This document shows positions 2,620 to 57,007 of a stretch of 62,203 bases of DNA, one piece after another. Origin of the DNA: Aporhodopirellula sallentina SM41 (GTDB lineage: Bacteria > Planctomycetota > Planctomycetia > Pirellulales > Pirellulaceae); assembly GCF_000346505.1 (NCBI RefSeq), contig NZ_ANOH01000400.1, positions 1 to 62,203 of the forward strand, written 5' to 3'. Positions within the stretch are counted from its first letter, which is position 1. Each line of letters opens with the position of its first letter. The notes under the pieces are model-generated. The model was given only the letters and a program-made list of their open reading frames with translations. It was not told the DNA's origin and searched no databases. A program made the position numbers and the translations under genes.

Positions 2620-2669
2620 TCGCGTCGAACCGGTCACGGTGGCGCGTTCGATCGCCCAACGCATCGATC

Positions 2670-2703
2670 GGGTCGCGATATCGTTCGGGTCGCGAAATCG
2701 TTC
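2670..2703. repeat. 17-bp tandem repeat between convergent genes
   Basis: GGGTCGCGATATCGTTC is followed directly by a copy with one changed base (2687-2703). Partial GCGTCAC units follow up to about 2730, inside the end of the aldolase gene. Confidence 0.7.
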
Positions 2704-2723
2704 GCGTCACAGCATCGACCGCG

Positions 2724-3671: not shown

Positions 3672-3683
3672 ATACGAATCTGC

Positions 3684-4226: not shown

Positions 4227-4469
4227 ATTACTATTCCTCGGAAAAGACTTCTCTCACTCGGCTCGCCGGTAAGAGAACGTTGCAAAGGAGCCAAGGGAAG
4301 ATCATCGACCCTCGTACACCTTTAGCGAAAAGGTTGGAGTTAAAATAAGATGATTAAACGACCTAGGCAAGTGTCCAGTCGTCTCTCACTCCACCAGCAT
4401 CCACCCCGCCCCCCGGCAGCAAGATAGGTAATCCAGGGAAGCAGCGGGCAAGCACCGCGATCCACGCAA

Positions 4470-5732: not shown

Positions 5733-5736
5733 GGGA

Positions 5737-6576: not shown

Positions 6577-6717
6577 GTACGAATAAATAGATGGTTGCTA
6601 ATAAGAAAATACAAAAGGCCGACCTGCGGCGGGAGAATCCAAAGGCCGCAGCACAGAAAGAACGTTCTCTGCAAAAGAACTTAGTTGCCTTTCAACGGAT
6701 CCGCCTCGACGCGTCGC

Positions 6718-12596: not shown

Positions 12597-13838
12597 CTAC
12601 GCGAGACCGGCGAGTTCGGAAGCACGGCGGACGCGTGAGATTCCGATCATGTACGCAGCCGTGCGCAGCGACACTTCATGCTGTCCCGCCATTTGCCACA
12701 CGTCTTCGAACGCTTCGTTCATCGTGTGGTCGAGTTCCTGCCGAACTCGATCGAGTGACCATCGATAGTGTTGACGGTTTTGAACCCATTCGAAGTAACT
12801 CACCGTCACCCCGCCCGCATTGGCGAGAATATCAGGAAGCACCGTCACCCCACGTTCATTGAGCACGTCATCGGCCCCCGGGTGAACCGGACCGTTGGCT
12901 GCCTCCACGATCACTTTCGCTTTGATCGTATCAACATTGTCTTCCGTGATCACACCGCCGAGCGCCGCCGGTATCAAAACATCGACCGGGTCGAGCTTCA
13001 GCAGAGCATCCAAAGGCAAATGCTCGGCCCCCTCGAACCCTTCGAGCAACCCTTTCGGGTGAGCGAGCTTGTGGCGCAGCAACTTTTGTATGTTGAGCCC
13101 ATCTTCGTTGTAGTACGTCCCGGTAATGTCTGACACCGCAACGATTGGGAACTGACCTTCGTACAGGAATTTGCCTGCGTGCGATCCCACGTTTCCAAAA
13201 CCTTGAATCGCAACGCGAGTCTTATCGGGAGTCATCCCCAAGCGTTTGATCAGCTTCTGCGTGAGCGTTCCGACACCTCGGCCGGTGGCTTCTTCACGCC
13301 CCTTCGCACCGTATTCTTCCACGGGCTTTCCAGTGATTACCGCTGGGTTGAAACCGTGGTACTTCTCCCATTGATTCCGAAACCAACTCATCACCTGGTG
13401 ATCGGTCCCCATGTCGGGTGCCGGAATGTCGGTATCAGGCCCCACGATGTCGTGAATCTGATCGACAAACGCACGCGTCATCCGTTCAATTTCGTTGCAG
13501 GAAAACTGCGACGGATCAACGCCGATCCCGCCTTTTGCACCACCGTAAGGCAGATTCACCACGGCGGTCTTCCACGTCATCAAACTCGCTAACGCACGTG
13601 ACTCGTCCAGATCGACCTCTTGGTGATAACGCAGCCCGCCCTTCATCGGTCCTCGGGCGTGATCATGCTGAACACGGAAGCCAACGAAGTTCGCCAGTCG
13701 CCCGTCGTCGCGTCGAATGGTGACCTGCACTTGAATTTCGCGATCCGGCATCAACAACGCTTCTTTCAACTCATCACTCATGTCGAGCTGTTCGGCAGCT
13801 TTACTGAAAAAGTACCGAGTGGCTTCGAATGCTTTCAT
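12597..13838 (-). CDS. Glu/Leu/Phe/Val-type dehydrogenase, probably glutamate dehydrogenase
   Basis: A 413-residue hexameric-type amino acid dehydrogenase. GPMKGGLRYH (Lys66) binds the substrate carboxylate, and PYGGAKGGIGVDP contains the catalytic Lys102. A Rossmann fold with GFGNVG follows around residue 215, and the C-terminal NAGGVTVSYFEWVQN block is conserved in glutamate dehydrogenases. The length suits the small NAD- or NADP-linked class. It interconverts glutamate and 2-oxoglutarate with ammonia. It stands alone, convergent with moxR. Cofactor preference cannot be read safely from the sequence. Confidence 0.9.
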   Translation of the reverse strand: MKAFEATRYFFSKAAEQLDMSDELKEALLMPDREIQVQVTIRRDDGRLANFVGFRVQHDHARGPMKGGLRYHQEVDLDESRALASLMTWKTAVVNLPYGGAKGGIGVDPSQFSCNEIERMTRAFVDQIHDIVGPDTDIPAPDMGTDHQVMSWFRNQWEKYHGFNPAVITGKPVEEYGAKGREEATGRGVGTLTQKLIKRLGMTPDKTRVAIQGFGNVGSHAGKFLYEGQFPIVAVSDITGTYYNEDGLNIQKLLRHKLAHPKGLLEGFEGAEHLPLDALLKLDPVDVLIPAALGGVITEDNVDTIKAKVIVEAANGPVHPGADDVLNERGVTVLPDILANAGGVTVSYFEWVQNRQHYRWSLDRVRQELDHTMNEAFEDVWQMAGQHEVSLRTAAYMIGISRVRRASELAGLA

Positions 13839-14023
13839 GACAAACTTTCATGCAGATAGAGTGAGGAAAAAACGCGAGCGTCCGAACTCAACGCCGCGCC
13901 CGCATTGTACCGATCGAACATTCCCCAACATGGCTGAAAATGGCAACCATTTTTCATCGAGGTCACGTTGAACACGCCTACTTTGTAACACGTGGGAAAG
14001 ACGCGTGGGCGATTGGCAACACT

Positions 14024-14707
14024 CTAGGCGTCTTCGGCTTCGCACTCACCATCAACCACGCGTACCAACCGATACGCCCATCCGCCAACAAGCGCCCCCA
14101 CGATCGGCGCAGTAAGGTACACCCATAAATTTGCGAAATACCCTGACGCCAATGCCGGTCCAAGACTGCGAGCCGGGTTCATTGACGCCTTCGTCAGCGG
14201 CCCTGCCACAAACGCCTCCATCGCAATCACCGCACCGACGGCGAGCCCCGCCGTAATCGACTTTTCCTTCGCTCCGGTCGAAACGCCCATCACGACCCAC
14301 ATCAAAATCGCCGTCATCATCGCTTCGACATACCACGCGGACATCGATGGCAAGATCGTCATCGTCGCCCCCAGGTAGTCTTCCCCCACTCCCAAAACAG
14401 CCCGAATGCTGACGGCGCCGAAAAATGCCCCGGCCACCTGCGCCCCCGCGTAGGCAAATGCGTCCCTCCAAGGGAAACGCCCGACCGACGCGAATGCAAA
14501 CGACACCGCAGGGTTCATGTGCGCGCCGCTGAGATCGCCGATCGAATAGATCATCGTCAACACGACCAATCCCCACACCATCGCAACACCGATGTGCGTC
14601 AACGCCTCGGTCTGCACGTCGACCGAAATCGCGCCACAACCAATCACCACTAAAAAGTAAGTGCCAATGAACTCGCACAGACATCGACGCGGGAGCCCCA
14701 GCAGCAT
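14024..14707 (-). CDS. Aquaporin (MIP family)
   Basis: A 227-residue channel with six membrane segments and the two half-helix signatures: HMNPAVSF (Asn65-Pro66-Ala67) and SMNPARSLGPAL (Asn177-Pro178-Ala179-Arg180). The Arg after the second NPA forms the selectivity filter. The length and ARS sequence fit AqpZ-type water channels more than glycerol facilitators, which are longer. Its start codon shares one base with the stop of the upstream Nudix gene (TAATG), so translation is probably coupled. Inner-membrane protein. Confidence 0.9.
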   Translation of the reverse strand: MLLGLPRRCLCEFIGTYFLVVIGCGAISVDVQTEALTHIGVAMVWGLVVLTMIYSIGDLSGAHMNPAVSFAFASVGRFPWRDAFAYAGAQVAGAFFGAVSIRAVLGVGEDYLGATMTILPSMSAWYVEAMMTAILMWVVMGVSTGAKEKSITAGLAVGAVIAMEAFVAGPLTKASMNPARSLGPALASGYFANLWVYLTAPIVGALVGGWAYRLVRVVDGECEAEDA

Positions 14708-15222
14708 TAAAGATGCCCCAAAAGAAACGCTTGCAGACCGACCAACGTTTTCGAGTCGCGAATTTGATGCTCACGGACCAACGTTTCAACTTCATCGCGT
14801 GAGACGATGCGTGTCGTAATTCGCTCGGTCGGCTCGAGCTGCTGTTCGCCCTCCGTTAAATCACGAGCCGCGATCATGTGCATCAATTCGTTTCCCAATC
14901 CCGGGGCGGAGTAAAACTCACAGATGACATCCAATTGTTTGGCATGATACCCTGTCTCCTCAACCAATTCACGGGCGGCCGTTTCGAGCGGCGGTTCGCC
15001 TGGATCCCGAGTCCCCGCGGGCAGTTCCAACAAAGTCTCCCCCACACCCGTGCGTTCATTCTCGATCATCACGATCGTATCGTCGTCGAGCAACGGCAAC
15101 AGCACGACGGCACCGGGATGTCTTATGTAGGCACGCCGATGAACTTGCCCGTCACGCGACGGCAACTCCATTTCGACAACATCAAAACGGCTCGTCTGCA
15201 ACAGCAGATTCGACTTAGACAC
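14707..15222 (-). CDS. Nudix hydrolase, ADP-ribose pyrophosphatase-like
   Basis: A 171-residue protein with a complete Nudix box: Gly70-x5-Glu76-x7-Arg84-Glu85-Leu-x-Glu88-Glu89-x-Gly91. The preceding sheet and the EFYSAPG segment after the box resemble ADP-ribose or nucleoside-diphosphate-sugar pyrophosphatases. It should hydrolyse a nucleoside diphosphate linked to another group, with magnesium. It is the first gene of a two-gene unit with the aquaporin, overlapping by one base. The link between the two functions is not obvious. Confidence 0.88.
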   Translation of the reverse strand: MSKSNLLLQTSRFDVVEMELPSRDGQVHRRAYIRHPGAVVLLPLLDDDTIVMIENERTGVGETLLELPAGTRDPGEPPLETAARELVEETGYHAKQLDVICEFYSAPGLGNELMHMIAARDLTEGEQQLEPTERITTRIVSRDEVETLVREHQIRDSKTLVGLQAFLLGHL

Positions 15223-15644
15223 GATGGACCATTCTTTCCAAAGACAGGGGCGCCGCCGCTCAACCCACTCCCCGAATTACAAACTCAGCATCTCGATCAC
15301 GAGCGACCGAGAAAGCCTAAGAAAATCCCCCGTCACGCAACACTCCCCTCCTTACAAACCATTCCGAGCACTTTCGCGGCAGCCGACGTTCGCCGGGCAA
15401 CTCAGCGCCGGACATGTCGCAAAAACATCTTCAAAAGTCCGCCGTCCGCACCTGTTATCTAGCGTCAGCGCTAGCCCACTACACCACGCCGGTCAATTTT
15501 GATCAGATGATCGCCATGCGGTGAATGCTCTCGCGAGACCAATATGCTCTATAGAAAAAGTGGCGTTTTTTGTCTCGCGGGCAGTTATGCCGTCCTACCT
15601 CACGACCGCTCTCGGCCGAATCGGACCTGCGCTGATGCTGCCTT
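15223..15644. other. Intergenic region upstream of the second fucosidase, 422 bp
   Basis: It lies between divergent genes, so promoters for both the Nudix gene and the fucosidase should be here. The only clear structure is the perfect hairpin CTAGCG-TCAG-CGCTAG at 15459-15474. No convincing gene. Confidence 0.6.
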
Positions 15645-17774
15645 GTGCGCCCCCCTTCCATTCGGAGTCCCACCTCAATGCACCCCGCCTCAATGCACCC
15701 CGCCTCTCTGCACGCTCCCTCTCCGCACGCTTCCTCTTTGTTGCAAACGTTGCGTTATCAATCGAAGACACAGTTCGGATTTCGCTCCACTGATCAACAT
15801 CGCGTTTTTTGGCTTGTTCGATTCACGACGTTGTTCGTTTTGCTCGTGATGTTGACCAACTCCGCCCGCTCGGAGGAACCGGTTGAACCGATCGGCAAAT
15901 ACGACATTTGGAACTTGCCGGAAATGCCCGTGTCTCCAGGACCCTACGAAGCAAACTGGCAGTCGCTTCGGATGTACGAAGTACCCGACTGGTTCCGGGA
16001 TGGGAAGTTGGGCATTTGGTCACACTGGGACCCTCAATCCATTCCCGAACGTGGCGACTGGTATTCGCGTTGGATGTACGTTCCAGGTCATCACCAGTAC
16101 GAGCACTGCCTGCAGACGTACGGGCACCCTTCCGAGTTCGGCTACAAAGATTTGTGTGCGTTGTGGACGTGTGACAAGTGGGATCCCGAGGGCTTTGTCG
16201 AGATGGCCAAAGGTGCCGGAGGCAAGTACTTCGTGGCACTCGCCAACCATCACGACAACTACGATTGCTGGGACTCGGTATATCAACCGTGGAACTCGGT
16301 CAATCTCGGCCCCAAAAAAGATGTCATTGGCACCTGGGCAAAGTACGCTCGAAAACACGGCATGCCTTTCGGCGTGACCGTGCACGCATCGCCAGCGCGT
16401 ACTTGGGGACAATTCATGCCACCACGCTATTCGTCCGACAGGAGTGGCCCCAAGAAGGGCGTTCCCTACGACGTGATGACCGCCACCCTGCAAAGCGGCA
16501 AAGGAACCGCGTGGGAAGGGCTCGACCCCAAGGATCTGTACGGTCCGCCTCACGTCAAAGAGGACGACGCCAACAAGTCACCGTTCGCGAACCAATTTAT
16601 GTGGAGAGTGAACGACCTACTCAAATACAATCCCGAACTGCTCTACTTTGACGAGTCCGCGGGAACGACCAACCTGGACCTCGGCGTCAAAATGGGGCTT
16701 GGGTACTTGGCACCACGGATCGCGGCGAACTTTTACAACAAGAGTCTTGCCAACAACGAGGGACGCCATGTAGCGGTCCTGAACATCAAGGAAGTCGGTG
16801 GCCCTCGCGACAGTTTAGAAACCAAAGAACTCAGCCACTTGGTGGATCAATCACTCGTCAAAGACAGCGAAAAGAAGAACGAAAAAGAGATCAAGGCGTA
16901 TCCTTTTCAAATCGACGATTCGCTCGGCCCTTGGCACATGAATGTAACGAAACCCTACAACCATGATGCTCGTTGGGTCATTCATCAACTCACCGACATC
17001 GTTAGCAAAAACGGAAACCTGTTGCTCGCCGTTCCGCAACGTGCTCAAGGGAATGTCGATGATCGCGCCCGTGAGATATGCGATAACATTGGCGATTGGC
17101 TCAGCGTCTACGGAGAAGCCATCTACGGCACGCGTCCGTTCGAAGTTTATCGCAATGAAGAACACAAGGTGTACTTCACTCGCAAACGCGATCACGTTTA
17201 CGCGATAATCACGCAGTGGCCCAAAGACTCGTCGCTGACCCTTCCTGAACTAAGGATGGGATGCCCAACGATCGGAAAAATCAGCACGATTGAACTGCTC
17301 GGATCATCAAGCGAGCTTGAGTTCACTCAGTCGAACGAATCGCTGGCCGTTGACCTACCGTCAGAGAGCCCACATGAAATTGCCTCGGTCTTAAAAATCT
17401 CTCACGACAAGACGTGGATCAACGACGACGACCCTGGTGTTCGCTACCGCGGATGGACTCACTTGGTCAATCGCGGCCTTGGTGAATTCAACAACGATAT
17501 CTATTTCTCCAATGCACGTGGCGACCGATGCTCCTATTCATTCCACGGTTCGGGCATCGACCTGGTGACCAACACCAACCCTGAATTCGGAGAACTGATG
17601 ATCCTGATCGACGGCAATCTCGATCGTGTCGTTTCATTGGCACAGGGAGACGAAATCAAACGCCAGCACGTGGTCTATTCAAACCGATCCTTGCCCGCAG
17701 GCGACCACGTTGTGGAGATCGTCAACGTCAGTAACCGCCGATGCGAAATGGATGCATTGGTGATCACCCCGTAG
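15645..17774 (+). CDS. Secreted GH29 alpha-L-fucosidase-like protein with extra C-terminal domain
   Basis: The frame allows 709 residues, but the first 45 are low complexity from a tandem repeat. The hydrophobic export signal (FTTLFVLLVMLTNSA) comes after them, so a later start is likely. The catalytic part shows GH29 features: SHWDPQSIP, DWYSRWMYVPG, ANHHDNYDCWDS and LLYFDES, whose Asp336 occupies the nucleophile position. A beta-rich region follows. A final domain of about 110 residues (from YRGWTHL to MDALVITP) looks like a carbohydrate-binding sandwich absent from the first GH29. It is convergent with the macroglobulin gene. The substrate is probably a fucosylated polysaccharide, an inference. 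Confidence 0.88.
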   Translation: MRPPSIRSPTSMHPASMHPASLHAPSPHASSLLQTLRYQSKTQFGFRSTDQHRVFWLVRFTTLFVLLVMLTNSARSEEPVEPIGKYDIWNLPEMPVSPGPYEANWQSLRMYEVPDWFRDGKLGIWSHWDPQSIPERGDWYSRWMYVPGHHQYEHCLQTYGHPSEFGYKDLCALWTCDKWDPEGFVEMAKGAGGKYFVALANHHDNYDCWDSVYQPWNSVNLGPKKDVIGTWAKYARKHGMPFGVTVHASPARTWGQFMPPRYSSDRSGPKKGVPYDVMTATLQSGKGTAWEGLDPKDLYGPPHVKEDDANKSPFANQFMWRVNDLLKYNPELLYFDESAGTTNLDLGVKMGLGYLAPRIAANFYNKSLANNEGRHVAVLNIKEVGGPRDSLETKELSHLVDQSLVKDSEKKNEKEIKAYPFQIDDSLGPWHMNVTKPYNHDARWVIHQLTDIVSKNGNLLLAVPQRAQGNVDDRAREICDNIGDWLSVYGEAIYGTRPFEVYRNEEHKVYFTRKRDHVYAIITQWPKDSSLTLPELRMGCPTIGKISTIELLGSSSELEFTQSNESLAVDLPSESPHEIASVLKISHDKTWINDDDPGVRYRGWTHLVNRGLGEFNNDIYFSNARGDRCSYSFHGSGIDLVTNTNPEFGELMILIDGNLDRVVSLAQGDEIKRQHVVYSNRSLPAGDHVVEIVNVSNRRCEMDALVITP
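15673..15732 (+). repeat. Four 15-bp tandem repeats at the fucosidase 5' end
   Basis: Two identical units (CCTCAATGCACCCCG, 15673-15702) are followed by two diverged ones up to 15732. They lie in frame in the proposed N-terminus and would encode Ser-Met-His-Pro-Ala repeats, which suggests that translation really starts after them. Confidence 0.8.
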
Positions 17775-17806
17775 CAGTGATCTCGGGCGAGGGCGTTTAC
17801 TAGAAA

Positions 17807-17864
17807 GACGTAGCCGATGTCGCCAGACTTCGGGGGTCTGAATTCTGGCGAATCCAGCTACGTC
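17807..17864. repeat. REPIN-like inverted pair, family B
   Basis: The plus-strand arm contains GTAGCCGATGTCGCCAGAC from 17810. The minus-strand arm, ending at 17864, contains GTAGCTGGATTCGCCAGAAT. The arms meet with almost no spacer. It lies 33 bp after the fucosidase stop, in a convergent gap. Confidence 0.8.
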
Positions 17865-17895
17865 GATTTTCATAATGCTCTTTATTCGGGCGTCC

Positions 17896-17953
17896 GGTAG
17901 TAGATCTTGTTAAAGTTCCCGCGGGATGAGGATCTTTCGCAGGATCCACTACC
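17896..17953. repeat. REPIN-like inverted pair, family C
   Basis: The left arm GGTAGTAGATCTTGTTAAAG (17896-17915) faces a right arm (17934-17953) that reads GGTAGTGGATCCTGCGAAAG on the minus strand. The spacer is 18 bases. A close copy of the left arm lies at 27130-27149. Confidence 0.78.
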
Positions 17954-18010
17954 AGTCGCATCCTCCTCATGCCGACGAGTCAATCGTCGGCATCAAATCC
18001 CGCCGCCTGT

Positions 18011-21000
18011 TCAGTCACCCACCGTCATCGCGTGGCTTTCGCTGTGACTGTTGTACTGCGGAGCGTACATCGACTCGATCGTTGCGAGCCCCGATTGATA
18101 GCGGCCTCGCAACTGAACACGGCTCCGCGATTCGAGCACGTAGGTTCCTTTCGGAAGATAGTCGATGAAGAAATGCTCGGCCGCGTCTCGGGTGCTCTGG
18201 TAGTAACCGAGCCCGTCTTGCCATCGGTATCCCGACAACACATTGCTCGGTTCGGTTCCGCTGCCTCGCGAGTCTTTCAAATGTACGAACTCCATCGCAC
18301 GTGAACTTCGCACGATCAATCGTGACACCAACTCATCTCCGACTCGGATCGGTGTTCCATCGACATCCACTTTGTCGGCTTTACTTCCCGATACCACGCG
18401 GCCGTCCACGACCGGACGCAAAACCTCCCCGGTCGGGGTGCTTCGGACGACAAACAGTTGCTTTTGGATTTCCAAAGGCGTCCCTTCATGAGGCGTGACG
18501 TCTTCGACGTTTTGGAAGTATTTCCAATGAACGCCGCCCCAAGCGATTCCAGGTGTCGTCTTGGTCACCGTGATCGATCCCATCTCCGGCGTGATCTCGC
18601 TAGCTTCGAAACGCTGCTGATAAAATCCAGTACCGGCTTCGACGTTTTCCTGCTGCACTTCACGCTGACCGACTTTGACATCGACGAGCGTTTGGTCTGC
18701 GAGCAGATCGGCACCACGCAACAACAACGAGTAGACGGCATCGGCGGTCGCCTTCGTCGTTTCCCATGAACGTGTCTCTTTCTGCCGCAGCAACCACGCC
18801 TTGCACGAATCAACCGACGATTGATCGGACGCGACCTCGTCGAACATTTCGATCATCATCGCTTGGGTTTCGATATCCGCTTGGTACCAGAACCAACCAC
18901 GCACGCCGTCGTTCCAGTGCATCCCCAACTCATCCGTGACGCTACGTTCCTTCAGCGAAGCGACAATCGCCATCGCGTCATCCTTTCGTCCGAATCGTGT
19001 TAGCGCGATCGCCAAGTGAGCTTGGCTCATTCGGGGCAGATCGATCCAGAATTCAGCCGCCTGATCGAGCCAGTAATTGAGGGCTGGTTTCGCATCCGCC
19101 GAAACATCAACGTCTCGCAAGAAGAAACTGCGACCGTACAGGTACATCGCGATCGTCGACGACAAATGTCGCGTTTTCCGATCTTTCTTCTTGATCTCGC
19201 TGTAGACCTTTTTCGAATAGGCGTCGAGGTGCGAAAGTGATTCGATCGCGGGCGAAACATCAACGTCCACCCCCAAGTGCCGCAGCCGCCCGTAGCCGGT
19301 CGCCAGGTACAAAGTGATGAACGAATTGCTGCGTCCCCCCGGGAACCAAGGCCAACTGCCGTCCTCGAGTTGCATGTCGTTGAGTCGACGTGCCAAACGT
19401 GTCACTTGGTCAGTGACCCTATTTTGATCGAACAAGATTCCGACGTTACGACGCGCCTCCGCTTCCGATTCGGCTTCAACCAACCACGGCGTTTCGGCGA
19501 GCGCGATCGACGCGAGTTCTTCGTTCTGCTGCAGAGGCGACGCGAGGGGATCACGGCCTCCGGGCTGTCCTTTGATCGCGTGAGGCTGATTTCGCCACTG
19601 TTGGAACACCCGTTCGATTTTCGGATCGGAGGTAGCGATATGCCGTGCGAGCAAGTTGGCGTACAAACGGTTAAACGTCTGCTCGCTGCATTCGTGCGGG
19701 TAGTCCATCAGGTACGGAAGCGCCATCACGGCGTACCACGCGGGATTGGACGTCATCTGCACGGTCAGAGATTCGCTGCGGATCGAATCCGAATCCAATG
19801 AAGCGAGCTTATCGAGAGTAAACGTCTTCGTTTCGGCTCCATCGATCGGTAGTGCGATGGACTCGTGCACGAGAGTCTTTCGCGACAGCACCGGAAGATA
19901 ACCTTCCTCGCCGTCCGACAAACGGCCCGTCGATGCGACCGCTTTGTAAACCAAGAACCCCATGCCGTCGGGAACGCGTATCGGCCACGCGAACGATTTG
20001 GATTGCCCGGCCGGAATCTCGAATTCGTGGCGACTTTGCGAATTACCGATCGCCTCATCGACACTGTCCCCGGTGCGTGCATCGGTAAACTCCAATGCAA
20101 CTGTTCCTCGCTGCACCGTGGCGGATTGATTGGACACCTTGACGGTCAACTCAATCTCATCGCCCTCTCGCAGAACACGCGGTGGGTTCGGTTGAACCAT
20201 CAAGTCTTTGCTTGTCACCGCCGTATCCTGAATCACTCCCGCGGAAAGATCCGCGGCGTGTGCAAAGCCGAGCAATTGCCAACGGGTCAGTGCCTCCGGC
20301 ATGGTGAAGCTCATCGTGACCTTCCCGTTTTCGTCCGCGGTCAAATCAGGAAAGAAGAACGCAGTTTCGTTCAGGTTCTTTCGAGGCGAGACGTCCGACA
20401 GGTCCACTCCCTCGCCGTCATCGTTGGACGGTGGTTGGCCGGAATTTTCCAACATGTCGCTGGCAACCATCGCGTCGGATTCCATCGCCGCATCGGCCAT
20501 CGCCATGGGTGCGGCGGCAGGCATAGGCATCCCTTCGGCAGCCATCCCCTTCCGCATCATTCGCCCACCGAACGGACGTTCGGATCGCATTGCCGCAAAC
20601 GCGACCATCACGGAACTCTGCAATTCACGTGGATAGGAACGATACTGCAACTCGACCGACGGCATGCCAATCGCCCGATAAACAGAAATTCGCTGCAGCC
20701 CTTCCCATCGGTTTTGGTCGGTGACGGCGATACGCGAATGGTCCTGATAGAACAAACCGAACCCATCCTGGAAACGGTGCGGCGCGAACGCATCGAGCGA
20801 CGCATCATAGAGCGTCGCAACCATCTCGACGGCCTTCTTCATCGACGATTCGGTATCGCCGGATGGGTCTTCGATAACCGCGGTCCAGGTTTCGCGTTGG
20901 CCGGGTTTCAGTTTCGACAAAAACCGTTCCCAACGAACGGTCAGCTCTTTATTCGTCCACGGCACGTCGATCCGACGCTCGTTGAGATAAAAACGATTCT

Positions 21001-39180: not shown

Positions 39181-40716
39181 TCATGCCTCTGTTGGAACCT
39201 TCAATACCTCACCAAGCCCGTCATAGACTCGCCGAGCCGTCCGCTCGGCAGCCCCAATCACGGGCGAGATTCCGACGCCGCCGACCGCGTTGGTCATGAT
39301 GTCGACGCCGGGAAGTTTGTCGGTCGCTGACTTGATCGCAGCGCCCCGTTCGAGGTGGCCGACTTCATACTGAGGCATCGACCGATTCCAACGCACGACT
39401 TTAACAAACGCGGCCCGTTGCTCGACGTCGCCGGGGTGTTGCAAACCGATCAAATCCGCGAGTTCCTTGGCAACAATTTGCACGATCGCCGAGTCCTCTT
39501 TTTTCAGCAGTTCGGGTTGCAGCATTCCGCCAACAAACGAACGGACGATCACATGATCCTTGGGAGCACGCCCCGCGTACTTTTCACTCGCGAAACTCGC
39601 CGCCAGGATCGAACGTTTCTCTCGCGGAGGAACAACAATGCCGAACGTCTTGGGCATTCTCGCAATCAACTCACGAGGGATCGCCATCACCACGATCGCG
39701 GTCGACGCGTAGGGGATCTCACGAAGACATTTCGCCAACGTCTCCGCCGCATCGCGCTGCGATTCATCGTCGAGCGTGGACTGCAGGTCTTCAACCAACT
39801 CGGCCGTGACCGATGACGGGGTCGTCAGAACAACTCGATCGAAAGACTCCTTCGCGAGTTCGGGCCGCGCCGACGATTCGAGCTGAAACACATCGCCTCG
39901 CCGCCGCAATCGATCGATCGGAGTTCGGGTTGCGATGTTTTCGCGTCCGACTTGATCTCGGAGCATTTCAATCAGTTCGATCATCCCACCGGGAAACGCG
40001 CGGAACTGTTCGTACCGCGCCCCGCTGCTGCCGCGTTCGGTGGAGTCCTCACCACTGCGGACTCGTCGCAACGTTGCCTTTGCCAGCGACCCGTCAGACG
40101 CTTCCATGTCCCAGATCGGTTTCATCGTTGCCGCCATGCTGAGGCGATCAACATCCGCCGTGTAGATCCCCGCAACCAACGGTGCAACGATGTTATCGAG
40201 ACACTCTCGACCGAGTCGCCGTCGCACAAACGACCCGACGCTCTCGTCGTGAACACTCATGTCGCGTGGCTTGACAAAGCGTTCGGCTAGCAAACGCAAC
40301 TTACCGGCAGGCGAGAGCAGCGGCGTTGTCACCATCGACCACAATTTGGTTGGTCGCATCAGGACGAAGCCTTCGGGGATCGGGATCAATCCGTTGCCGC
40401 GGGCAATCATCGCCCCTCGTCCCTCCGGATTCGGACGCAGCAATCGGTCGGCGACGCCGAGTCGTTGACACAACTCGATCGCAGCAGGCGGCTTCATCGC
40501 GAACATGTCCGCGCCATGGTCGACGATGAACTCTTCGCCCGATTCGCTGACGATCCGTTCGGTATGGATCACACCGCCATCGCGATCAGACGATTCGAAC
40601 ACCGTGAGGTTTGCGCCGCGGCCGCCTTCGTTGGCTAACAATCGCAGATGGGTTGCGACAGCGAGCCCCGACAGCCCGCCACCGATAATCGCGATTCGAG
40701 GTTCCGTCATGCTCAA
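39181..40716 (-). CDS. hemG: Protoporphyrinogen oxidase, FAD-dependent
   Basis: A 511-residue flavoprotein of the HemY/HemG oxygen-dependent type. It opens with the dinucleotide site IIGGGLSGLAVATHL and FESSDRDGGVIHTE. The middle contains HDESVGSFVRRRLGRE and FRAFPGGMIELIEML, characteristic of protoporphyrinogen oxidase, and the C-terminus closes the FAD site (VGGVGISPVIGAAERTARRV). It oxidises protoporphyrinogen IX (or coproporphyrinogen III in the Gram-positive route). Its start overlaps the stop of the SHD1 gene by 4 bp. With HemW at 4.5 kb it is the second haem-related gene in the window. Confidence 0.9.
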   Translation of the reverse strand: MSMTEPRIAIIGGGLSGLAVATHLRLLANEGGRGANLTVFESSDRDGGVIHTERIVSESGEEFIVDHGADMFAMKPPAAIELCQRLGVADRLLRPNPEGRGAMIARGNGLIPIPEGFVLMRPTKLWSMVTTPLLSPAGKLRLLAERFVKPRDMSVHDESVGSFVRRRLGRECLDNIVAPLVAGIYTADVDRLSMAATMKPIWDMEASDGSLAKATLRRVRSGEDSTERGSSGARYEQFRAFPGGMIELIEMLRDQVGRENIATRTPIDRLRRRGDVFQLESSARPELAKESFDRVVLTTPSSVTAELVEDLQSTLDDESQRDAAETLAKCLREIPYASTAIVVMAIPRELIARMPKTFGIVVPPREKRSILAASFASEKYAGRAPKDHVIVRSFVGGMLQPELLKKEDSAIVQIVAKELADLIGLQHPGDVEQRAAFVKVVRWNRSMPQYEVGHLERGAAIKSATDKLPGVDIMTNAVGGVGISPVIGAAERTARRVYDGLGEVLKVPTEA

Positions 40717-45104: not shown

Positions 45105-46295
45105 TCAATACCGGACGGTCACACCGGTTATCAACGAGTGGGCCGAAACATCGTTGCGGACGGTGACCGGACCGCCAGCGGTTGGCACGGTCCCGATCAA
45201 GCTGTTGTGGCCGAGGTACACGTACGACAGGTTCAGGTCCACGTTCTTCGCAAAACGATACGAACCACCCGTTGCGATGTTGTATTTCTGAATCAGCGGG
45301 CTGATGACGTTTTTCGGAACGTCGCTTTCGTGAATCGGTGGTTGGTTGAAGTTGATTCCGCACCGCAGGTGCAGTCGATCTCCCATCTTCTTTTGCACGC
45401 CGAATGCGGCCGCGAACAGATTGCTCCATCCGAGTTCACTGAACCCGTCGGCATCGTCGTAGCCGATGTAGCGGAAGTCCGCCGCAAACGTCCAATCTTC
45501 CCAACCGGTGTACGCCGTTCCCAGCGAAAAGATCATCGGCAAGTCGAGGTCAAACTTCACCAAGCCGCTCGGCGTGAAGAACCGGAACGTTTCCATCCAC
45601 TGCGTGCTGCGGAAACTCGCTCCGAAGTGAAAGTGGTTGTCGGTGATGTAGTAGATCCCGGTTTGGAATCCGATCCCCCAGTGCTTTCGGTTCCCCTGCG
45701 ACGTTTCCGCTGTGGAAGTGATCACCGAGGGACCGATCGGATCGAAACCAACCTCACCGAGGGTCACCAAAGGGGCGAAACCGATCGACAGTTTTTCGTT
45801 GACCAGGAAAGAGACCGTAGGTGCGATCTGCAAAAACTCCGACATCGCGTAGGCAGGGTTGCCACCGAGAATCGGATTTCCTGCGGGCTGGTTATTCACA
45901 AACCCGGCCACACCGGCCAATCCAAGGCCGACTGTCCAGCGTGAGTCTTCACTCATCCGGTGCACCCAACCGATCGACGGGACCGCGGCGGCGCCGGCAT
46001 CGCCCTCGGTGCCTCCGCCCAGACTCGAGGTCAACTCCACATCGGCCAGCAAGAGTTCGACACCGAACCCAACCTCATTATTAGCCAGCCCCGAGATCGA
46101 AGCCGGGTTCCACGCCAAAGCTCCGACCGCGTCGAGCGGAGCGGCGGTTCCGGCGCCGGCCATCGACCGGTTCACCGGCCCGACTCCGGTCAAATACACC
46201 CCCTGACCGTTGGCGGTCTCGGGCATCACGCCTGCGACCACGGACACCAAGCACGTCAGTATCAATAAATACGAAAGTCGAGATAAGGTCGACAC
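45105..46295 (-). CDS. OmpP1/FadL-family outer membrane transporter
   Basis: I chose the GTG at 46295 because AGGAGG lies seven bases before it; this gives 396 residues and a good signal peptide (YLLILTCLVSVVAGVMPETANG). The mature protein opens with VYLTGVGPVNRSMAGAGTA and NPASISGL, the conserved start of FadL-type 14-strand barrels, and later strands alternate polar and hydrophobic residues. Members carry long-chain fatty acids or aromatic hydrocarbons across the outer membrane. A 21-bp palindrome lies about 60 bp upstream and may be an operator. It converges with glgC. Confidence 0.88.
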   Translation of the reverse strand: MSTLSRLSYLLILTCLVSVVAGVMPETANGQGVYLTGVGPVNRSMAGAGTAAPLDAVGALAWNPASISGLANNEVGFGVELLLADVELTSSLGGGTEGDAGAAAVPSIGWVHRMSEDSRWTVGLGLAGVAGFVNNQPAGNPILGGNPAYAMSEFLQIAPTVSFLVNEKLSIGFAPLVTLGEVGFDPIGPSVITSTAETSQGNRKHWGIGFQTGIYYITDNHFHFGASFRSTQWMETFRFFTPSGLVKFDLDLPMIFSLGTAYTGWEDWTFAADFRYIGYDDADGFSELGWSNLFAAAFGVQKKMGDRLHLRCGINFNQPPIHESDVPKNVISPLIQKYNIATGGSYRFAKNVDLNLSYVYLGHNSLIGTVPTAGGPVTVRNDVSAHSLITGVTVRY

Positions 46296-46302
46296 GGAAG
46301 TC

Positions 46303-46308
46303 CCTCCT
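46303..46308 (-). promoter_or_regulatory. Ribosome binding site fixing the GTG start of the FadL-type gene
   Basis: AGGAGG on the minus strand, seven bases before GTG at 46295. The upstream in-frame ATG at 46346 has no such site and would place 17 extra residues before the signal peptide. Confidence 0.8.
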
Positions 46309-46356
46309 GGACGGAGTCTGCAATGAAGCCCCTGCGTACAATCCATTGTCCACAGT

Positions 46357-46560: not shown

Positions 46561-47031
46561 TCACTTCACCGCGTAGATATCAAAGAGCATTTTCGACTCA
46601 CCGGCAAAGTCGACATGGGCCTCACCAACACCGATGCAGGCGAGCCGATTGAGCCACAGGTATTTCTCAGCCGCAACGTGGAACCGCGGGAAGATACGAA
46701 GTGCTGTTCCCGGCACCGGCGCCCGCCCCGCCATGAATTCCTCAAACCCGTTCTCGCCTAGATCGGCCATGCCGTGGTAGTGCATGTTCAGCAGAGCCTC
46801 GTCATCGGTTCGGATCGTTAGACGAACGTCAACCTCCGCGATGCCATCACTCCGCATCAGCAACCAATCGCCACCGGCCGGCAAGATCGTGCCTTGCACT
46901 TTCTCGCCGGTTACCTCGCCACCGGTCAGGTTGAAGTTCACTCGCACTCCTCCCGCCACCGGCCCGACAATTTCCGGACCACCAATCGTGGCGGTGTATG
47001 AGAACAAATGCTCCATCTTGTAATCGATCAT
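46561..47031 (-). CDS. DUF3237-family protein
   Basis: I chose the ATG at 47031, with AAGGA seven bases before it; an upstream TTG at 47049 adds six residues. The 156-residue protein matches DUF3237: LFSYTATIGGPEIVGP, GGEVTGEKVQGTILPAGGDWLLMRSDG and a late FPRFHVAAEKYLWLNRL. These are small beta-barrel proteins of unknown activity that often occur beside oxidoreductases. It lies 213 bp downstream of the FAD-decarboxylase fusion on the same strand, and the pair may act on the same compound. No signal peptide. Confidence 0.85.
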   Translation of the reverse strand: MIDYKMEHLFSYTATIGGPEIVGPVAGGVRVNFNLTGGEVTGEKVQGTILPAGGDWLLMRSDGIAEVDVRLTIRTDDEALLNMHYHGMADLGENGFEEFMAGRAPVPGTALRIFPRFHVAAEKYLWLNRLACIGVGEAHVDFAGESKMLFDIYAVK

Positions 47032-47044
47032 GTTGGAATCCTTA

Positions 47045-47078
47045 TTCAATGAGTAAACAACTTCAATGAGTAAACAAC
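47045..47078. repeat. Perfect 17-bp tandem duplication
   Basis: TTCAATGAGTAAACAAC occurs twice without spacer, immediately upstream of the DUF3237 ribosome binding site on the minus strand. Confidence 0.8.
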
Positions 47079-47199
47079 GACGAGACCAGAGTGTCCGGCT
47101 TTGACGAACAACCGCGCAACCTCAATAGCGGGCACCGGATAATCAGAGGCGAGCATTTCCTTCTCTGACACCTCTCGCGTCAATGCCCCATTCCCTACA

Positions 47200-47256
47200 G
47201 GCAAACTGGCTTTATGGCCAAACGGTTAGATAGCCAAACAACCTTTACGGCCAAAC
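47200..47256 (-). repeat. Imperfect 16-17-bp repeats at the fusion gene's stop
   Basis: On the minus strand GTTTGGCCGTAAAG, GTTTGGCTATCTAA, GTTTGGCCATAAAG and a partial GTTTGCC follow each other with 16-17-base spacing. The first unit contains the last codons and the stop. Confidence 0.65.
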
Positions 47257-50200
47257 TGTGCGACCGAGTCGCAGTTCGCTGTCGACGGTCATCGTAACGG
47301 CCGCGAGACAGCTTTGCGTGTTGGACTGCATCCCCATGTCCGCCACGATCGGATGGCTTTCGAAATCGCACGCGGTGAGTCGATAGTCGCCGGGCAAAAT
47401 TCCCGCGCTGTGGAACGTTTTGATCTTCAAAGGTGCTTCCACGATCGATTGGAAACACGCTTCCTCTCGCCGGTCCACTTTCGCAAACTGCTTCAAGAAG
47501 GTGAACGGAATGGTCTGATTCGCCAACATCTGCCAGGCTTCCGCGATCAAACCGAGCCCCGGCAATGTGATCTCTCTGTCTTCGCCGCGTTCCTGCTGCC
47601 CTCCTTCCTGCTCCGTGACTAGTGGCGACAGGAGTGCCTCCATCGCTCCCGCGTAGTTGTCCAGTCGCGTCGCGGGTGACGCGAACAGGTCCTGATCCTG
47701 ACGCTTTACTTCGAGCAGCGTACCGGTTTGTGTTACCGCGGAACTGCCGAAGGTCTCGACGTACTGCGATTCGACTCGGTACACCGCCGAATCGTTTTGC
47801 GATTGCGGCACGGTGATCGTTGCATCTTGCTTTGGGAACCCATACGCCTCTCTACCGGAGACAGTCGCCCACGAGTTGTTAACGAAGACGTACGGGAAGA
47901 ACCACGAGATTCGTTCGACCACTTCGATCGGGCCAACCTTTTTCAACTTCACCACGGGAAACGTCAGGTTGATATCCTTTTCAGGCGAGCTGAACTCGTT
48001 GGCTTCGCCGGGGTTAACGCGGATCGTGGGAAAGTCAGCGACCATCACAACGAAACCGGGCAACAAAGGACGGTAGACCGACCGACCACCCAACGGTGCA
48101 TTAAGCGATTGGTCGCACAAACGCTGCAACGCCGCTCGGGTCGACTTCACCGCAAACCCGGTAAGGCTGACGTTTGGGAAATCATATGCACCGGGGAACG
48201 CCGTTTCGCCGCCCCGAATGATATACCGTGGTCCAGAGAGTACTGCAGGGGTTCTGCGTTGGTTGCTGTTTTCGATGACTGCGGTCGCGGCTTCCAATCC
48301 GGACATCACCGCCGCCTCCACGCAACCAACATTCAACGGGTTGTAGGTCCATGTGCCGGCGAGAACCAAATTGCCATAACCGCTCTCGCCCGGATGCAGC
48401 CGATATTTCGTCGATCCTTTCACCGACAACACATAACGTTCCGTCGGCGCGATGTTGGCCCGAAAGTATTGCGCGTCGGATCGCGCCTCGCCTGACGCTC
48501 CCGATGAATCAACCAACACGTCCCAATTCAACGCGTTCGGGTTTCCAGGCTGAGCCGCGTTGGGCCAAAACGGACGGATGTGCTCGGTCAGGATCGCTTT
48601 CGAGTTTGCTTTGGCACGCTCGGTTTCTTGCTCAACGAAACCACACTGGTTTGGCGGCGGCAGAGGAGGAATCGTGTCGTCGTCCTTCATCGCACCGCAG
48701 AAGTAGGCAATGCTCTGCACGTTCTGTGACGTCGGCCATTCTTCGGCGGGGATGACCTGCGTCATGTCCGACCACGTATCGAGCGGCGACTCGTACGCGC
48801 CCACCAAGGCTTGCTCGCGAGGCGGCGTTTCGCCCGCCCCCGGCGCCGGATACCAAGGCTCCCAACCCATGTCGTTGGTCGTTTGGTTGAACCAGAACTG
48901 ACACGCCTGCGTTTGCACCGTTTTGACATGGTCCACCATATTCTTCCAACGGTCGTCGTGTGCGATCAACTCACCGGCGATGTGCGGTATCGCTCCGATC
49001 GAAATGCCGAGCACGATTTGGTCGAAGTCTTCGCCCATGGTCAACGTTTTCTTCTGTACCGGTTCGGGCGGACACCACGCCGACTCGGGATTCAGACCAT
49101 GGTCGATCCAATCTTGGCCCTGTTCGATTTGGTCATACAACGGCGTGCTCGGCCAACACGGACAATCGTGAACCCAAACCAACGGGTCATAAACACCATT
49201 GCAACTGGGTTTGAGCGTGCCCTGAACGTCCATTTCAATCTCGGAGATTCCCGAGTGATCGTCGCTGAGTTTGAGATTGCGAACCTTGTGGAAGAATTCG
49301 AACTTGACCCCTTTTTCCTTCAAGACGAGATACAGCGGCGAGAAAACGATATCTCCCATGCCGGCTTCCATCTTCCACAGCAGCGCGTCTTTGTACGTCA
49401 GCAGAATCCGGGCGAACGCGCGAGTGCATGCTCCGGCGGCAAAGTTCGGATTGCTGGTGTCTCCACCTTCGTACGCGAACACGAGCGAGTACGCAGCGCG
49501 TACCGGCGCGGAATCCGACGAATGACAATCGTTTCGTTTGAGCCATTCGCGAAAGTCGAATTGCTCAATCACATCCCAACCGCCTTGCAACACGCCGTCG
49601 CTTATCATTCCTCGCATCACCGCCGTGCCGATATCGAGCGAAATGAACAATCGCCGCAGTTCGGTGTGACCCGACAAGACACCATTGAGAAGACCTTCGA
49701 TCTGATCACGCAGTTTGGTCAACAGCCAAGTCAGCAAATTGTATTGGTGCACCGAGTGGTTGCGCGAGTCGTCGCTCAACTGATCCATCACTCCGTCAGC
49801 CAGATGCAGCAGGCTAACCCCGGAACGCTCGCCCATTCCGAGCAGCATGGAATCGACACTGCGCAGTTCCGCCCTCACCCACCCTTCAAACTCTTCCGGT
49901 TTCGCCTCCGTTTGTGATCGGAACGCAGGAAGATCGAAATTCCCAACGAAGTCATCGAACAAACGTCTCAACCATTTGGCGAGCGTTTTCATCAATGTCC
50001 AAGGCGTCCAAAGAGTGTTCTCCGTTCCGAGTTCCTCGTCGTTGCGTGGGAAATGATTGGTCCATGGATGCCACGATCCTTCCGCATCCTCCATCACGCT
50101 GACCATGCTCAGTGGTTTGAACGCAGGTTGGTCCCCGTTGACCGATTGATAGGGCGAGTTGGGCGCGAGTTGTCGTTGATGAAACTCCGCATAGGTTTCC

Positions 50201-50442
50201 TTCATCATCCTGAAGGCGTTGTTGTAGAAGCCAAACCAGATATGCAGCCCGTGCTCTTCGATCCGATTGCCCATGCCGGGTTGCTGGTTACGACCACTGG
50301 CTCCTTTCCCGCCGAGCCGCCAACCGACTTGATAGACCGTGATATCAAATTTGTCTTGCCAGTCAGGTGCCTGCATGATCCCGTGAATGGTACTCAAGGC
50401 TCCCAAGCCTCCACCCAACACGGCGATTTTCTGCTTTCCCAT
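47245..50442 (-). CDS. FAD-dependent oxidoreductase fused to an acetoacetate-decarboxylase-like domain
   Basis: A 1065-residue cytoplasmic fusion. Residues of about 1-735 are an amine-oxidase/phytoene-desaturase-type flavoprotein: AVLGGGLGALSTIHG, VGWRLGGKGASGRN, HGLHIWFGFYNNAF, and the closing FAD motif LAGTWTYNPLNVGCVEAA. From about 760 comes an acetoacetate-decarboxylase-like domain (YRPLLPGFVVMVADFPTI, SWATVSGREAYGFPKQ). Lys871 aligns with the Schiff-base lysine of the decarboxylase (FPK). The next residue is Gln where the classic enzyme has a second Lys that lowers the pKa. The pair suggests oxidation then decarboxylation of a keto acid or lipid, an inference. It is followed by the DUF3237 gene. 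Confidence 0.85.
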   Translation of the reverse strand: MGKQKIAVLGGGLGALSTIHGIMQAPDWQDKFDITVYQVGWRLGGKGASGRNQQPGMGNRIEEHGLHIWFGFYNNAFRMMKETYAEFHQRQLAPNSPYQSVNGDQPAFKPLSMVSVMEDAEGSWHPWTNHFPRNDEELGTENTLWTPWTLMKTLAKWLRRLFDDFVGNFDLPAFRSQTEAKPEEFEGWVRAELRSVDSMLLGMGERSGVSLLHLADGVMDQLSDDSRNHSVHQYNLLTWLLTKLRDQIEGLLNGVLSGHTELRRLFISLDIGTAVMRGMISDGVLQGGWDVIEQFDFREWLKRNDCHSSDSAPVRAAYSLVFAYEGGDTSNPNFAAGACTRAFARILLTYKDALLWKMEAGMGDIVFSPLYLVLKEKGVKFEFFHKVRNLKLSDDHSGISEIEMDVQGTLKPSCNGVYDPLVWVHDCPCWPSTPLYDQIEQGQDWIDHGLNPESAWCPPEPVQKKTLTMGEDFDQIVLGISIGAIPHIAGELIAHDDRWKNMVDHVKTVQTQACQFWFNQTTNDMGWEPWYPAPGAGETPPREQALVGAYESPLDTWSDMTQVIPAEEWPTSQNVQSIAYFCGAMKDDDTIPPLPPPNQCGFVEQETERAKANSKAILTEHIRPFWPNAAQPGNPNALNWDVLVDSSGASGEARSDAQYFRANIAPTERYVLSVKGSTKYRLHPGESGYGNLVLAGTWTYNPLNVGCVEAAVMSGLEAATAVIENSNQRRTPAVLSGPRYIIRGGETAFPGAYDFPNVSLTGFAVKSTRAALQRLCDQSLNAPLGGRSVYRPLLPGFVVMVADFPTIRVNPGEANEFSSPEKDINLTFPVVKLKKVGPIEVVERISWFFPYVFVNNSWATVSGREAYGFPKQDATITVPQSQNDSAVYRVESQYVETFGSSAVTQTGTLLEVKRQDQDLFASPATRLDNYAGAMEALLSPLVTEQEGGQQERGEDREITLPGLGLIAEAWQMLANQTIPFTFLKQFAKVDRREEACFQSIVEAPLKIKTFHSAGILPGDYRLTACDFESHPIVADMGMQSNTQSCLAAVTMTVDSELRLGRTVWP

Positions 50443-55587: not shown

Positions 55588-56293
55588 ACCGATCCGGTTT
55601 GAGGCGATTCGCAGGCCGAAACGCCGATCTGGAAAACAACCATCCGCGGGACGACCTTCATCGGGTCAAACTCTCGCGGGCGAGCCGACTGGCGATCGGG
55701 CGGCCACGAGAACGGACGCCATATCAAGGTCCGACATATCGACGCCTCACATCTCGACGCCTCACATCTCGACGCCTCACATCTCGACGGCCTCTATGCC
55801 AGGCCGCCGCCCCGGACTCAACGGCGCCGCAGACTCCTCTTCAGTCGCCCAAAGGCACCCTCCCTCCCTTAAAGCCCATTTTCGAGACCGTATCCCGGTA
55901 CCGAAGCGAGACGTCTGTTTTGCATTGCGGCCCTTCTGCCGACGCACTGCAAACGCGTTCATCTCCCGCGAACGACGTCGCATCCTCCGAAAACCGACCG
56001 AAGTTGGTCTTCGACATGCACGCGAGGCTACGCTGAGTTGCCTATTTAGGAGGTTTGGGCAATTGACAACGGTGGCGCTGAAGTTACTGTAGGCGGGCAA
56101 TAAGAACAGAGTGGATGTGGTTTCCAATGCGGCACCCACGATTCCTGTGTGAATCACCTGTTCCTCCGTGGCCCTGATCGCAGCGTGTGATTGGGGCGAT
56201 GACAAGATTTTCAGAAGTGCTCGATAGCATTTCAACAGTTTAGTGTGCGAACTCAGATCGCACCGAACACTCCGAACCTTTTGGGAGAATTAG
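55588..56293. other. Intergenic region, 706 bp, with a 15-bp tandem repeat
   Basis: Overlapping short open frames on both strands are rich in Arg, Ser and Pro, carry no motif, and I do not call them. The clear feature is the tandem repeat at 55734-55794. A weak TTGACA (56063) with TACTGT 16 bases later could be a promoter for the next gene. Confidence 0.55.
55734..55794. repeat. Four 15-bp tandem repeats
   Basis: The unit ACATCTCGACGCCTC occurs four times without spacers. The first copy has one changed base and the last has one inserted G. Confidence 0.85.
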
Positions 56294-57007
56294 ATGACTC
56301 GGAATTTGGTGAAAGGAACGGCCGCCCTCGCGTTGGTCATGGCCGCCTCTTTGACATTGAGCGCACCGGTACAAGCTGGTGGTTTGTTCAAGAAACTTTT
56401 CGCGAAGAACGACTGCTGCGAACCAACCCGCTGCGGCGGTGGTGGCTTGTTTGCCAAACTGCGTGCAATGAAAGCAGACGATTGCTGCGAGCCTTGCTGC
56501 TGCGAACCAGCACCAGAGCCATGCTGCGAACCTGCTCCGGAACCATGCTGTGCCCCAGCTCCTGAGCCATGCTGCGAACCAGCTCCTGCTCCTTGCTGCG
56601 AACCTGCACCAGCACCATGCTGCGAGCCTGCTCCCGTCGTCGAAGCTCCTTGTTGTGGCGCCGTCGAAGCAGCTCCTGTCGTTGAAGCTCCTTGCTGCGG
56701 TGGCGACGCCCCAGTCGTCGAAGGTGCTCCTGTCGAAATGGGCGAATCGGTCAGCAGCGAAGGTTTCGACCTTGCTCCCGGCGAAACTCTCGTTCCTGGT
56801 AGCGTAACGACCGGTGCTGCTACCGAAGCCGCAACGGAAGCTCCAGCCGCGGAAGCTCCTGCTGCTGAAGCACCACCAGCACCGACCGCAGACGCAGCAG
56901 CCGATGCCGCTCCTGCCGAAGGCGATGCCGTTCCTAGCAGCAGCGACGAAGAAGCCGCTCCACCGGCTCCTCCAGCACCAACGCCAGACGCCGCTACCGA
57001 CATCTAG
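56294..57007 (+). CDS. Exported Cys-Cys-Glu-Pro repeat protein
   Basis: A 237-residue protein with a clear signal peptide (LVMAASLTLSAPVQA) and GGGAGAA-like GGGAGAA-type Shine-Dalgarno sequence GGGAGAA before the ATG. The mature part begins GGLFKKLFAKNDCCEP, then repeats short units of Cys-Cys-Glu-Pro-Ala-Pro about nine times (residues of about 40-115), then Ala-Pro-Cys-Cys-Gly variants, then an acidic Ala/Pro/Glu tail without cysteine. More than 25 cysteines lie in paired positions, which fits disulfide cross-linking or metal binding outside the cytoplasm. I recognise no catalytic family. Planctomycete cell walls contain Cys-rich proteins, so a structural role is conceivable. A terminator follows. 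Confidence 0.85.
   Translation: MTRNLVKGTAALALVMAASLTLSAPVQAGGLFKKLFAKNDCCEPTRCGGGGLFAKLRAMKADDCCEPCCCEPAPEPCCEPAPEPCCAPAPEPCCEPAPAPCCEPAPAPCCEPAPVVEAPCCGAVEAAPVVEAPCCGGDAPVVEGAPVEMGESVSSEGFDLAPGETLVPGSVTTGAATEAATEAPAAEAPAAEAPPAPTADAAADAAPAEGDAVPSSSDEEAAPPAPPAPTPDAATDI

Follow-up and report, generated by a model that had tools for sequence, protein, structure and literature searches.

A flavoprotein fused to an acetoacetate decarboxylase-like domain adjoins a STAND signalling gene in Aporhodopirellula sallentina and in other bacteria

The window analysed here, a stretch of 62,203 nucleotides from contig NZ_ANOH01000400.1, belongs to the 8.19-Mb genome of the planctomycete Aporhodopirellula sallentina SM41. 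Four of its genes, all on the minus strand and running in one direction, encode a STAND-type protein with a Ser/Thr kinase and an AAA_16 nucleoside triphosphatase (NTPase) domain, a fusion of a flavin adenine dinucleotide (FAD) oxidoreductase with an acetoacetate decarboxylase (ADC)-like domain, a DUF3237 protein and a FadL-type porin (Table 1). A preliminary description of positions 46561..50442 had proposed that the fusion and DUF3237 form a compact oxidation-decarboxylation unit for an unknown substrate; the STAND and FadL genes lie in the window but outside that interval. The STAND gene is the next gene upstream of the fusion on the same strand, with 198 bp between its end and the fusion start, and the FadL gene directly follows DUF3237, again on the same strand. 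The DUF3237 gene follows the fusion on the same strand as had been described, and its match to PF11578 reached 107.2 bits against a cut-off of 24. Its start is likelier the ATG at 47031, which has AAGGA ahead of it and would give a protein of 156 residues. All four genes are kept in the same order in Aporhodopirellula and Rhodopirellula rubra, where most flanking genes match too; identities to these two relatives are 73-77% for the STAND protein, 71% for the fusion, 85-90% for DUF3237 and 83-89% for FadL. Two more genomes from this genus had no match to the fusion, and none of the four genes was present in the 20 kb around their orthologous glgC.

Table 1. Features of the locus, in window coordinates
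Feature	Length	Position	Strand	Evidence
FadL/TodX-type outer-membrane transport protein		45105..46346	-	PF03349, 88.5 bits, cut-off 29.7
DUF3237 (PF11578) protein	162 aa from TTG	46561..47049	-	ORF + Pfam
FAD oxidoreductase/ADC-like fusion	1065 aa	47245..50442	-	ORF + Pfam
STAND-type signalling protein, Ser/Thr kinase - AAA_16 NTPase - long C-terminal region	1330 aa	50641..54633	-	

The earlier assignment of an FAD oxidoreductase and an ADC-like domain to one chain was borne out by the open reading frame (ORF), by Pfam and by relatives. A full-length fused form recurs in Aporhodopirellula, in R. rubra, in a betaproteobacterial metagenome-assembled genome (32% identity) and in further lineages, and the fusion is therefore not a frame artefact. 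The FAD domain covers approximately residues 1-725, with NAD_binding_8 at 8-82 (30 bits, Pfam cut-off 21.9) and the C-terminal part of Amino_oxidase at 680-723 (25.8 bits, cut-off 19.8). A Rossmann FAD motif, GGGLGA at residue 10, together with the C-terminal Amino_oxidase motif places it in the amine oxidase/desaturase FAD superfamily, and in 22 aligned FAD domains the GGG motif, GWRxGGK, R60, E63, G65, H67, E709 and G715 are invariant. The closest named families are zeta-carotene desaturase, phytoene desaturase and HpnE, all with scores far under their cut-offs; the zeta-carotene and phytoene desaturase equivalogs gave 29 bits against 622.15 (TIGR02732) and 14.5 bits against 569.4 (TIGR02731). 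The best solved chain for a profile of 16 relatives was the plant phytoene desaturase 5mog, a weak match with a whole-sequence expect value (E) of 3.7e-6, in which both ends were matched in the correct order and single pieces scored only about 12.6 bits each. From its sequence, we take the FAD domain as representing a distinct family within the superfamily, one not named in the libraries searched. Limonene dehydrogenase CtmAB and sterol delta-24 desaturase were considered as relatives. According to passages of the two sources, these flavoproteins perform oxygen-independent allylic oxidation of terpenoid hydrocarbons, the CtmAB authors compared them with phytoene dehydrogenases, CtmAB is heterodimeric (CtmA 1698 b, CtmB 1650 b), and CtmAB and the delta-24 desaturase carry the His-bearing covalent-flavin consensus G-F-L/R-X-N/S-T/L-H-A (PMC4109377, PMC11061730). 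Membership of the CtmAB type was rejected, as this consensus is missing in all 22 FAD rows. A second Amino_oxidase-family protein, resembling protoporphyrinogen oxidase by eye, is encoded at 39181-40716 (-), approximately 6.5 kb from the fusion, and is conserved in loci L001 and L002.

The ADC-like domain comprises approximately residues 736-1065. PF06314 matched at 745-892 with 32 bits, narrowly above the Pfam cut-off of 29.8, which assigns the domain to the ADC fold, and an ADC profile matched the solved ADC-superfamily chains 3bgt, 5upb and 3c8w (E 3.5e-6 to 2.2e-5) with the lysine motif aligned. Lys871 stands at the position of the Schiff-base lysine of acetoacetate decarboxylase, Lys115, and is followed by Gln872, as had been described. 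The Lys871 column is lysine in 22 of 22 ADC domains from 20 loci and the neighbouring column in none of them, so the loss of the second lysine is real but family-wide rather than special to this protein. In the alignment the Lys-to-Gln change is a family trait, which alone would say little on activity. By the title of a 1996 paper, Lys116 reportedly matters for the pKa of Lys115, whereas a later structural study is said to credit a hydrophobic pocket instead. A column presumed to match Glu76 of acetoacetate decarboxylase holds Glu in 12, Asp in 9 and Asn in 1 of the 22 domains (Asp823 in the window). The column of Arg29, presumably the holder of the substrate carboxylate, was placed by MAFFT and by eye only and has no Arg in the 22 rows (Val758/Ser759 in the window; one Arg, in L027, occupies the next column). 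Because the second lysine is absent throughout although the Schiff-base lysine is kept, ordinary acetoacetate decarboxylation is unlikely, and the residue pattern suggests imine chemistry of another kind. Of the residues expected for the proposed decarboxylation, the Schiff-base lysine is present, but the second lysine and an Arg29-like arginine are absent.

Relatives were collected from overlapping samples with homology to the FAD domain as the sole criterion, which after deduplication gave 26 loci in Planctomycetota, Pseudomonadota and one member of the Bacteroidota. The samples were 294 Planctomycetota genomes (6 matches, 1 dropped), 100 genomes of the window's family (5 matches, 2 dropped), 398 genomes from the phylum of the betaproteobacterial locus (5 matches), 289, 274 and 287 genomes from the classes of G627, G748 and G299 (3, 3 and 5 matches), plasmids (11 records) and one genome-contig scan (3 loci). 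The dropped matches, in G191, G300 and G302, were partial (66-91 residues, E 4e-5 to 1e-3), and 1 of 8 Azospirillum plasmid records was kept. A search of viral contigs returned 19 pattern matches and no relative. In counts out of 26, the window, L001 and L002 each enter although they form one clade, as do L060 and L061 from a single genus.

An ADC partner accompanies the FAD protein in 20 of the 26 loci. It is fused as FAD-ADC in nine (window, L001, L002, L003, L021, L027, L036, L045, L063), fused in the order ADC-FAD in two (L025, L059) and encoded by a separate gene in nine (L020, L022, L026, L035, L047, L058, L060, L061, L062). That the two domains occur fused in either order argues strongly for a joint function, and in this respect the idea of a compact FAD-ADC unit stands. 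ADC domains exceeded the Pfam cut-off in the window, L020, L021, L022, L045 and one of the two copies in L035; L003, the other L035 copy and one L047 copy fell below it, the second L047 copy and L062 had no Pfam match, and the remaining domains were assigned via a home-built profile. A protein beside the Rufibacter FAD gene (L023), first aligned as ADC, had no Pfam match and was removed before the count. Some loci hold more than one FAD-family gene, namely three in L024 and two in each of L020, L027, L058 and L060. The three tandem paralogues of L024 (6642-12737, -) adjoin a STAND kinase, and the 20 kb covered there contain no ADC match; L047 carries two ADC-like genes (13920-16384, +; 16344-18302, -) and a TIR-TPR gene approximately 3-5 kb from its FAD gene. 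No description of the fusion or of the module was found in the open-licence PubMed Central literature with strict word combinations, which is weak evidence of absence; the parts come from known superfamilies, and it is their combination for which no description was found there.

The most frequent neighbour beyond ADC is a STAND protein. In the window its kinase has the HRDLKP and DFG motifs, and its AAA_16 domain (74.2 bits, cut-off 32.6) has Walker A GRSGAGKS at 431 and Walker B LILSIDD at 552; no TPR family was found there in the Pfam scan, and weak TPR matches in L045, L021 and L058 were all under cut-off. A STAND protein lies within a few genes of the FAD gene in 18 of the 26 loci (window, L001, L002, L003, L020, L021, L023, L024, L027, L035, L036, L045, L046, L058, L060, L061, L062, L063), or in 15 of 23 lineages when clades are merged; one gene intervenes in L058 and three in L035. 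AAA_16 was confirmed with Pfam in the window, L003, L020, L021, L045, L046 and L058 and otherwise assigned by a home-built profile. The association had been noted at 13 of 20 loci, and it was then seen at five of six new loci found by FAD homology alone, the sixth lying on a 5-kb contig that breaks off within the gene. The output domain varies: kinase in the window, L036 and others, cyclase in L003, L021, L045 and L058, and hybrids in L020 (kinase-GAF-PAS-histidine kinase) and L046 (kinase-GAF-histidine kinase-receiver-Hpt). Twelve records, picked because their FAD and STAND genes adjoin, were searched with the AAA_16/C-terminal region of the window protein; 11 had one to four homologues, the Qingshengfaniella plasmid had none, and in 11 of 11 the best homologue was the FAD-adjacent copy. 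A rough product for random placement over nine of these paired lineages, those without the pairing being left out, is approximately 10^-20. The FAD-STAND linkage is well supported. Among the loci lacking a STAND gene, L026, L056 and L059 lie on contigs of 4.7-7.3 kb, and non-STAND regulators adjoin the FAD gene in L048 (DNA-binding-TPR regulator) and, on its short contig, in L056 (PAS-histidine kinase). Anti-phage defence was considered and rejected: no PADLOC model matched the fusion, and of the 33 that matched the kinase the 25 shown fall on the kinase domain.

These data are best read as FAD-dependent oxidation and Schiff-base chemistry on a hydrophobic compound, with a STAND sensor watching. 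We lean, by a modest degree, towards the view that the fusion supplies the catalytic core of a conserved module pairing an enzyme with a sensor, rather than forming a plain two-step pathway. In the sequence of events that we infer, the FadL-type porin would let the compound in and the FAD domain would dehydrogenate it, either by desaturation or by oxidation towards a carbonyl. The carbonyl could then be caught by the ADC-like domain as a Schiff base on Lys871 and undergo an imine/enamine step, for which an aldol-type reaction, dehydration or isomerisation would be likelier than acetoacetate-type decarboxylation. In the window clade the DUF3237 protein might handle a further step. MalT-like STAND proteins respond to their ligands, and in the same manner the adjacent kinase-AAA_16 protein may sense substrate or product and signal via its kinase. 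The domains, the gene linkage, the invariant lysine and the kinase and NTPase motifs are observed in the sequences, whereas the chemistry at each step, the kind of substrate and the direction in which signals pass are inferred. The case for a hydrophobic compound rests on the FadL gene and the desaturase-like fold.

Several observations weigh against this reading. Six of the 26 loci have no ADC partner, and several ADC assignments (L003, L047, L062 and one in L035) rest on the home-built profile. Structure models had a mean predicted local distance difference test score of 31.4 for the whole fusion and 32.0 for the ADC domain alone, too low to judge an FAD pocket or a decarboxylase barrel; four rows (window, L001-L003) were available. 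The end of strand 2 in an FAD Rossmann fold usually carries an acidic residue, and the fusion has Gln38 there. Despite ample flanks, no STAND gene was found at L022, L025, L047, L048 and L057, so the enzyme can exist without one. Conversely, the STAND region finds a match of some level in 89 of the 294 Planctomycetota genomes, and all five neighbourhoods of STAND kinase homologues read away from a FAD gene (L049, L050, L051, L052, L053; 13-19 kb each), a subset of the FAD-free homologues from the Planctomycetota scan plus one in G384, hold no FAD-family gene. A tree of 11 STAND proteins did not resolve linked from unlinked copies, and the window genome, with no RPE65-family match, gives no evidence on the substrate.

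The strongest competitor, close to the preliminary description and possible though clearly less probable, is a purely catabolic operon in which FadL imports, the fusion and DUF3237 degrade by oxidation and true decarboxylation, and the STAND kinase is a local inducer-type regulator. A FadL porin was found close by in at least nine of the 26 loci (window, L001, L002, L003, L020, L035, L036, L063 and, approximately 7.5 kb away, L062); L003 and L020 were picked up by Pfam but escaped the home-built profile, so the counts are lower bounds. In L036 an AMP-binding gene of the coenzyme A (CoA)-ligase type lies approximately 2.3 kb past FadL, and between the window and R. rubra DUF3237 (90%) and FadL (89%) are more conserved than the fusion. 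The same idea gains from the DUF3237 family, which had been described as one of unknown activity. That description no longer holds, as two papers describe PinX as a DUF3237 protein that decarboxylates phenolic dimers, as do its homologues PhcF/PhcG of dilignol catabolism (PMC12607616, PMC12997858). Among the solved chains matching the window protein are 3c5o and 4pux, neither functionally named, and, weakly, PhnH. Yet DUF3237 was found by PF11578 search in only 3 of the 14 genome or plasmid records with the FAD protein, all from the window clade; at loci outside those records it was sought with a narrow profile only. DUF3237 is linked, but in one clade only, and it was rejected as the defining partner; we read it as an accessory of that clade. 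The Pfam scan showed no lignan-pathway gene among the window genes scanned, and the four genes include neither a CoA ligase nor a ring-cleavage gene. The missing second lysine and Arg29-like arginine speak against true decarboxylation, and a STAND partner occurs at more loci than FadL does. Of the compact unit first proposed, the linked FAD-ADC pair survives and the DUF3237 partnership does not, STAND and FadL being the recurrent partners. An oxidation-decarboxylation unit with DUF3237 is, on partial support, better replaced by a pairing of an FAD/Schiff-base enzyme with a STAND signalling protein.

A more far-reaching possibility, which we regard as rather unlikely, gives the sensing role to the FAD-ADC protein, at the head of a bacterial signalling unit of a new class. 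The protein would bind or convert a hydrophobic polyene or ketone, kept as a Schiff base on the ADC-like lysine beside the flavin, and pass on its ligand or redox state, perhaps also a light state, to an exchangeable STAND partner of the kinase, cyclase or hybrid-kinase type.

Carotenoid or apocarotenoid chemistry, with the FAD domain acting on a polyene and the ADC-like lysine on a polyene aldehyde or ketone, would fit either functional reading and seems doubtful at present. Zeta-carotene and phytoene desaturases are the closest named families of the FAD domain, but the desaturase equivalog score is far too low. Carotenoid-type neighbours occur at two loci. In L058 the second FAD gene and the cyclase-AAA_16 STAND gene flank the gene of an RPE65-family oxygenase (13363-14820, +; E=7.9e-125), and the L035 cluster (1163-7496) encodes a Lycopene_cyc-domain protein (27.0 bits, exactly at the cut-off) and a lycopene-cyclase-like FAD protein. 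That cluster also holds FadL, the FAD gene, a STAND kinase and two ADC-like proteins, one of them under cut-off. Six of the 22 genomes carrying the FAD gene had an RPE65 match, against 0 of 15 lacking it (one-sided Fisher p=0.03, controls not lineage-matched), but the match lay beside the FAD gene in one genome only, and RPE65 was absent from the window genome and from all four plasmid records with the FAD gene. The RPE65 family also includes lignostilbene dioxygenases, so this lead is not specific for carotenoids.

Chance, by which two ordinary enzymes happen to be fused among unrelated genes, fits the patchy spread (approximately 1-3% of genomes per search after partial matches were dropped) and the two same-genus genomes without the gene, but is very improbable, being already contradicted by linkage repeated in Planctomycetota, Pseudomonadota and Bacteroidota, by fusion in both orders and by STAND genes at five of the six new loci.

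If the linkage reflects function, the loci would represent a widely scattered, uncharacterised enzyme-sensor unit in which the output domain changes between Ser/Thr kinase, nucleotide cyclase and histidine kinase while the flavin/Schiff-base enzyme stays constant. Such a unit would help to show which signals large orphan STAND kinases answer to, and might bring to light new Schiff-base chemistry within the ADC superfamily. Elsewhere in the window, low-complexity antisense ORFs at 56294-57007 (+) and 56290-57003 (-) overlap almost completely, the plus-strand ORF being rich in CCEPAPEP repeats.

Each part of the locus can be compared with a known system. MalT-like STAND regulators and Ser/Thr kinase-AAA_16 hybrids likewise combine AAA_16 with a long C-terminal region and interchangeable outputs; the present proteins differ in their kinase, cyclase or hybrid-kinase output and in having a flavoenzyme gene as partner. 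The ADC superfamily (PF06314; 3bgt, 3c8w, 5upb) shares the GRE-x-YG-x-x-K-type motif with its Schiff-base lysine and, for 21 of the 22 domains, an acidic residue in the column presumed to match Glu76, whereas 3bgt, 3c8w and 5upb have Lys-Lys where none of the 22 domains does; these domains also lack an Arg29-like arginine, and the one in the window is fused to an FAD domain. With the plant and cyanobacterial phytoene and zeta-carotene desaturases (5mog, TIGR02731, TIGR02732) and HpnE (TIGR03467) the FAD domain shares the N-terminal Rossmann and C-terminal motifs, including a common E-x-GLHI-x-F-G-x-Y stretch (EHGLHIWFGFY in the fusion, ETGLHIFFGAY in 5mog), but it is longer, at approximately 725 residues against the 497 of the 5mog chain, and its partners, by fusion or gene linkage, are ADC and STAND proteins. 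For CtmAB and the delta-24 desaturase, an ADC partner is not mentioned in the passages concerned (PMC4109377, PMC11061730). PinX, set beside PhcF and PhcG in passages of its sources, shares the Pfam domain of the window's DUF3237 gene, a likeness at the level of the domain.

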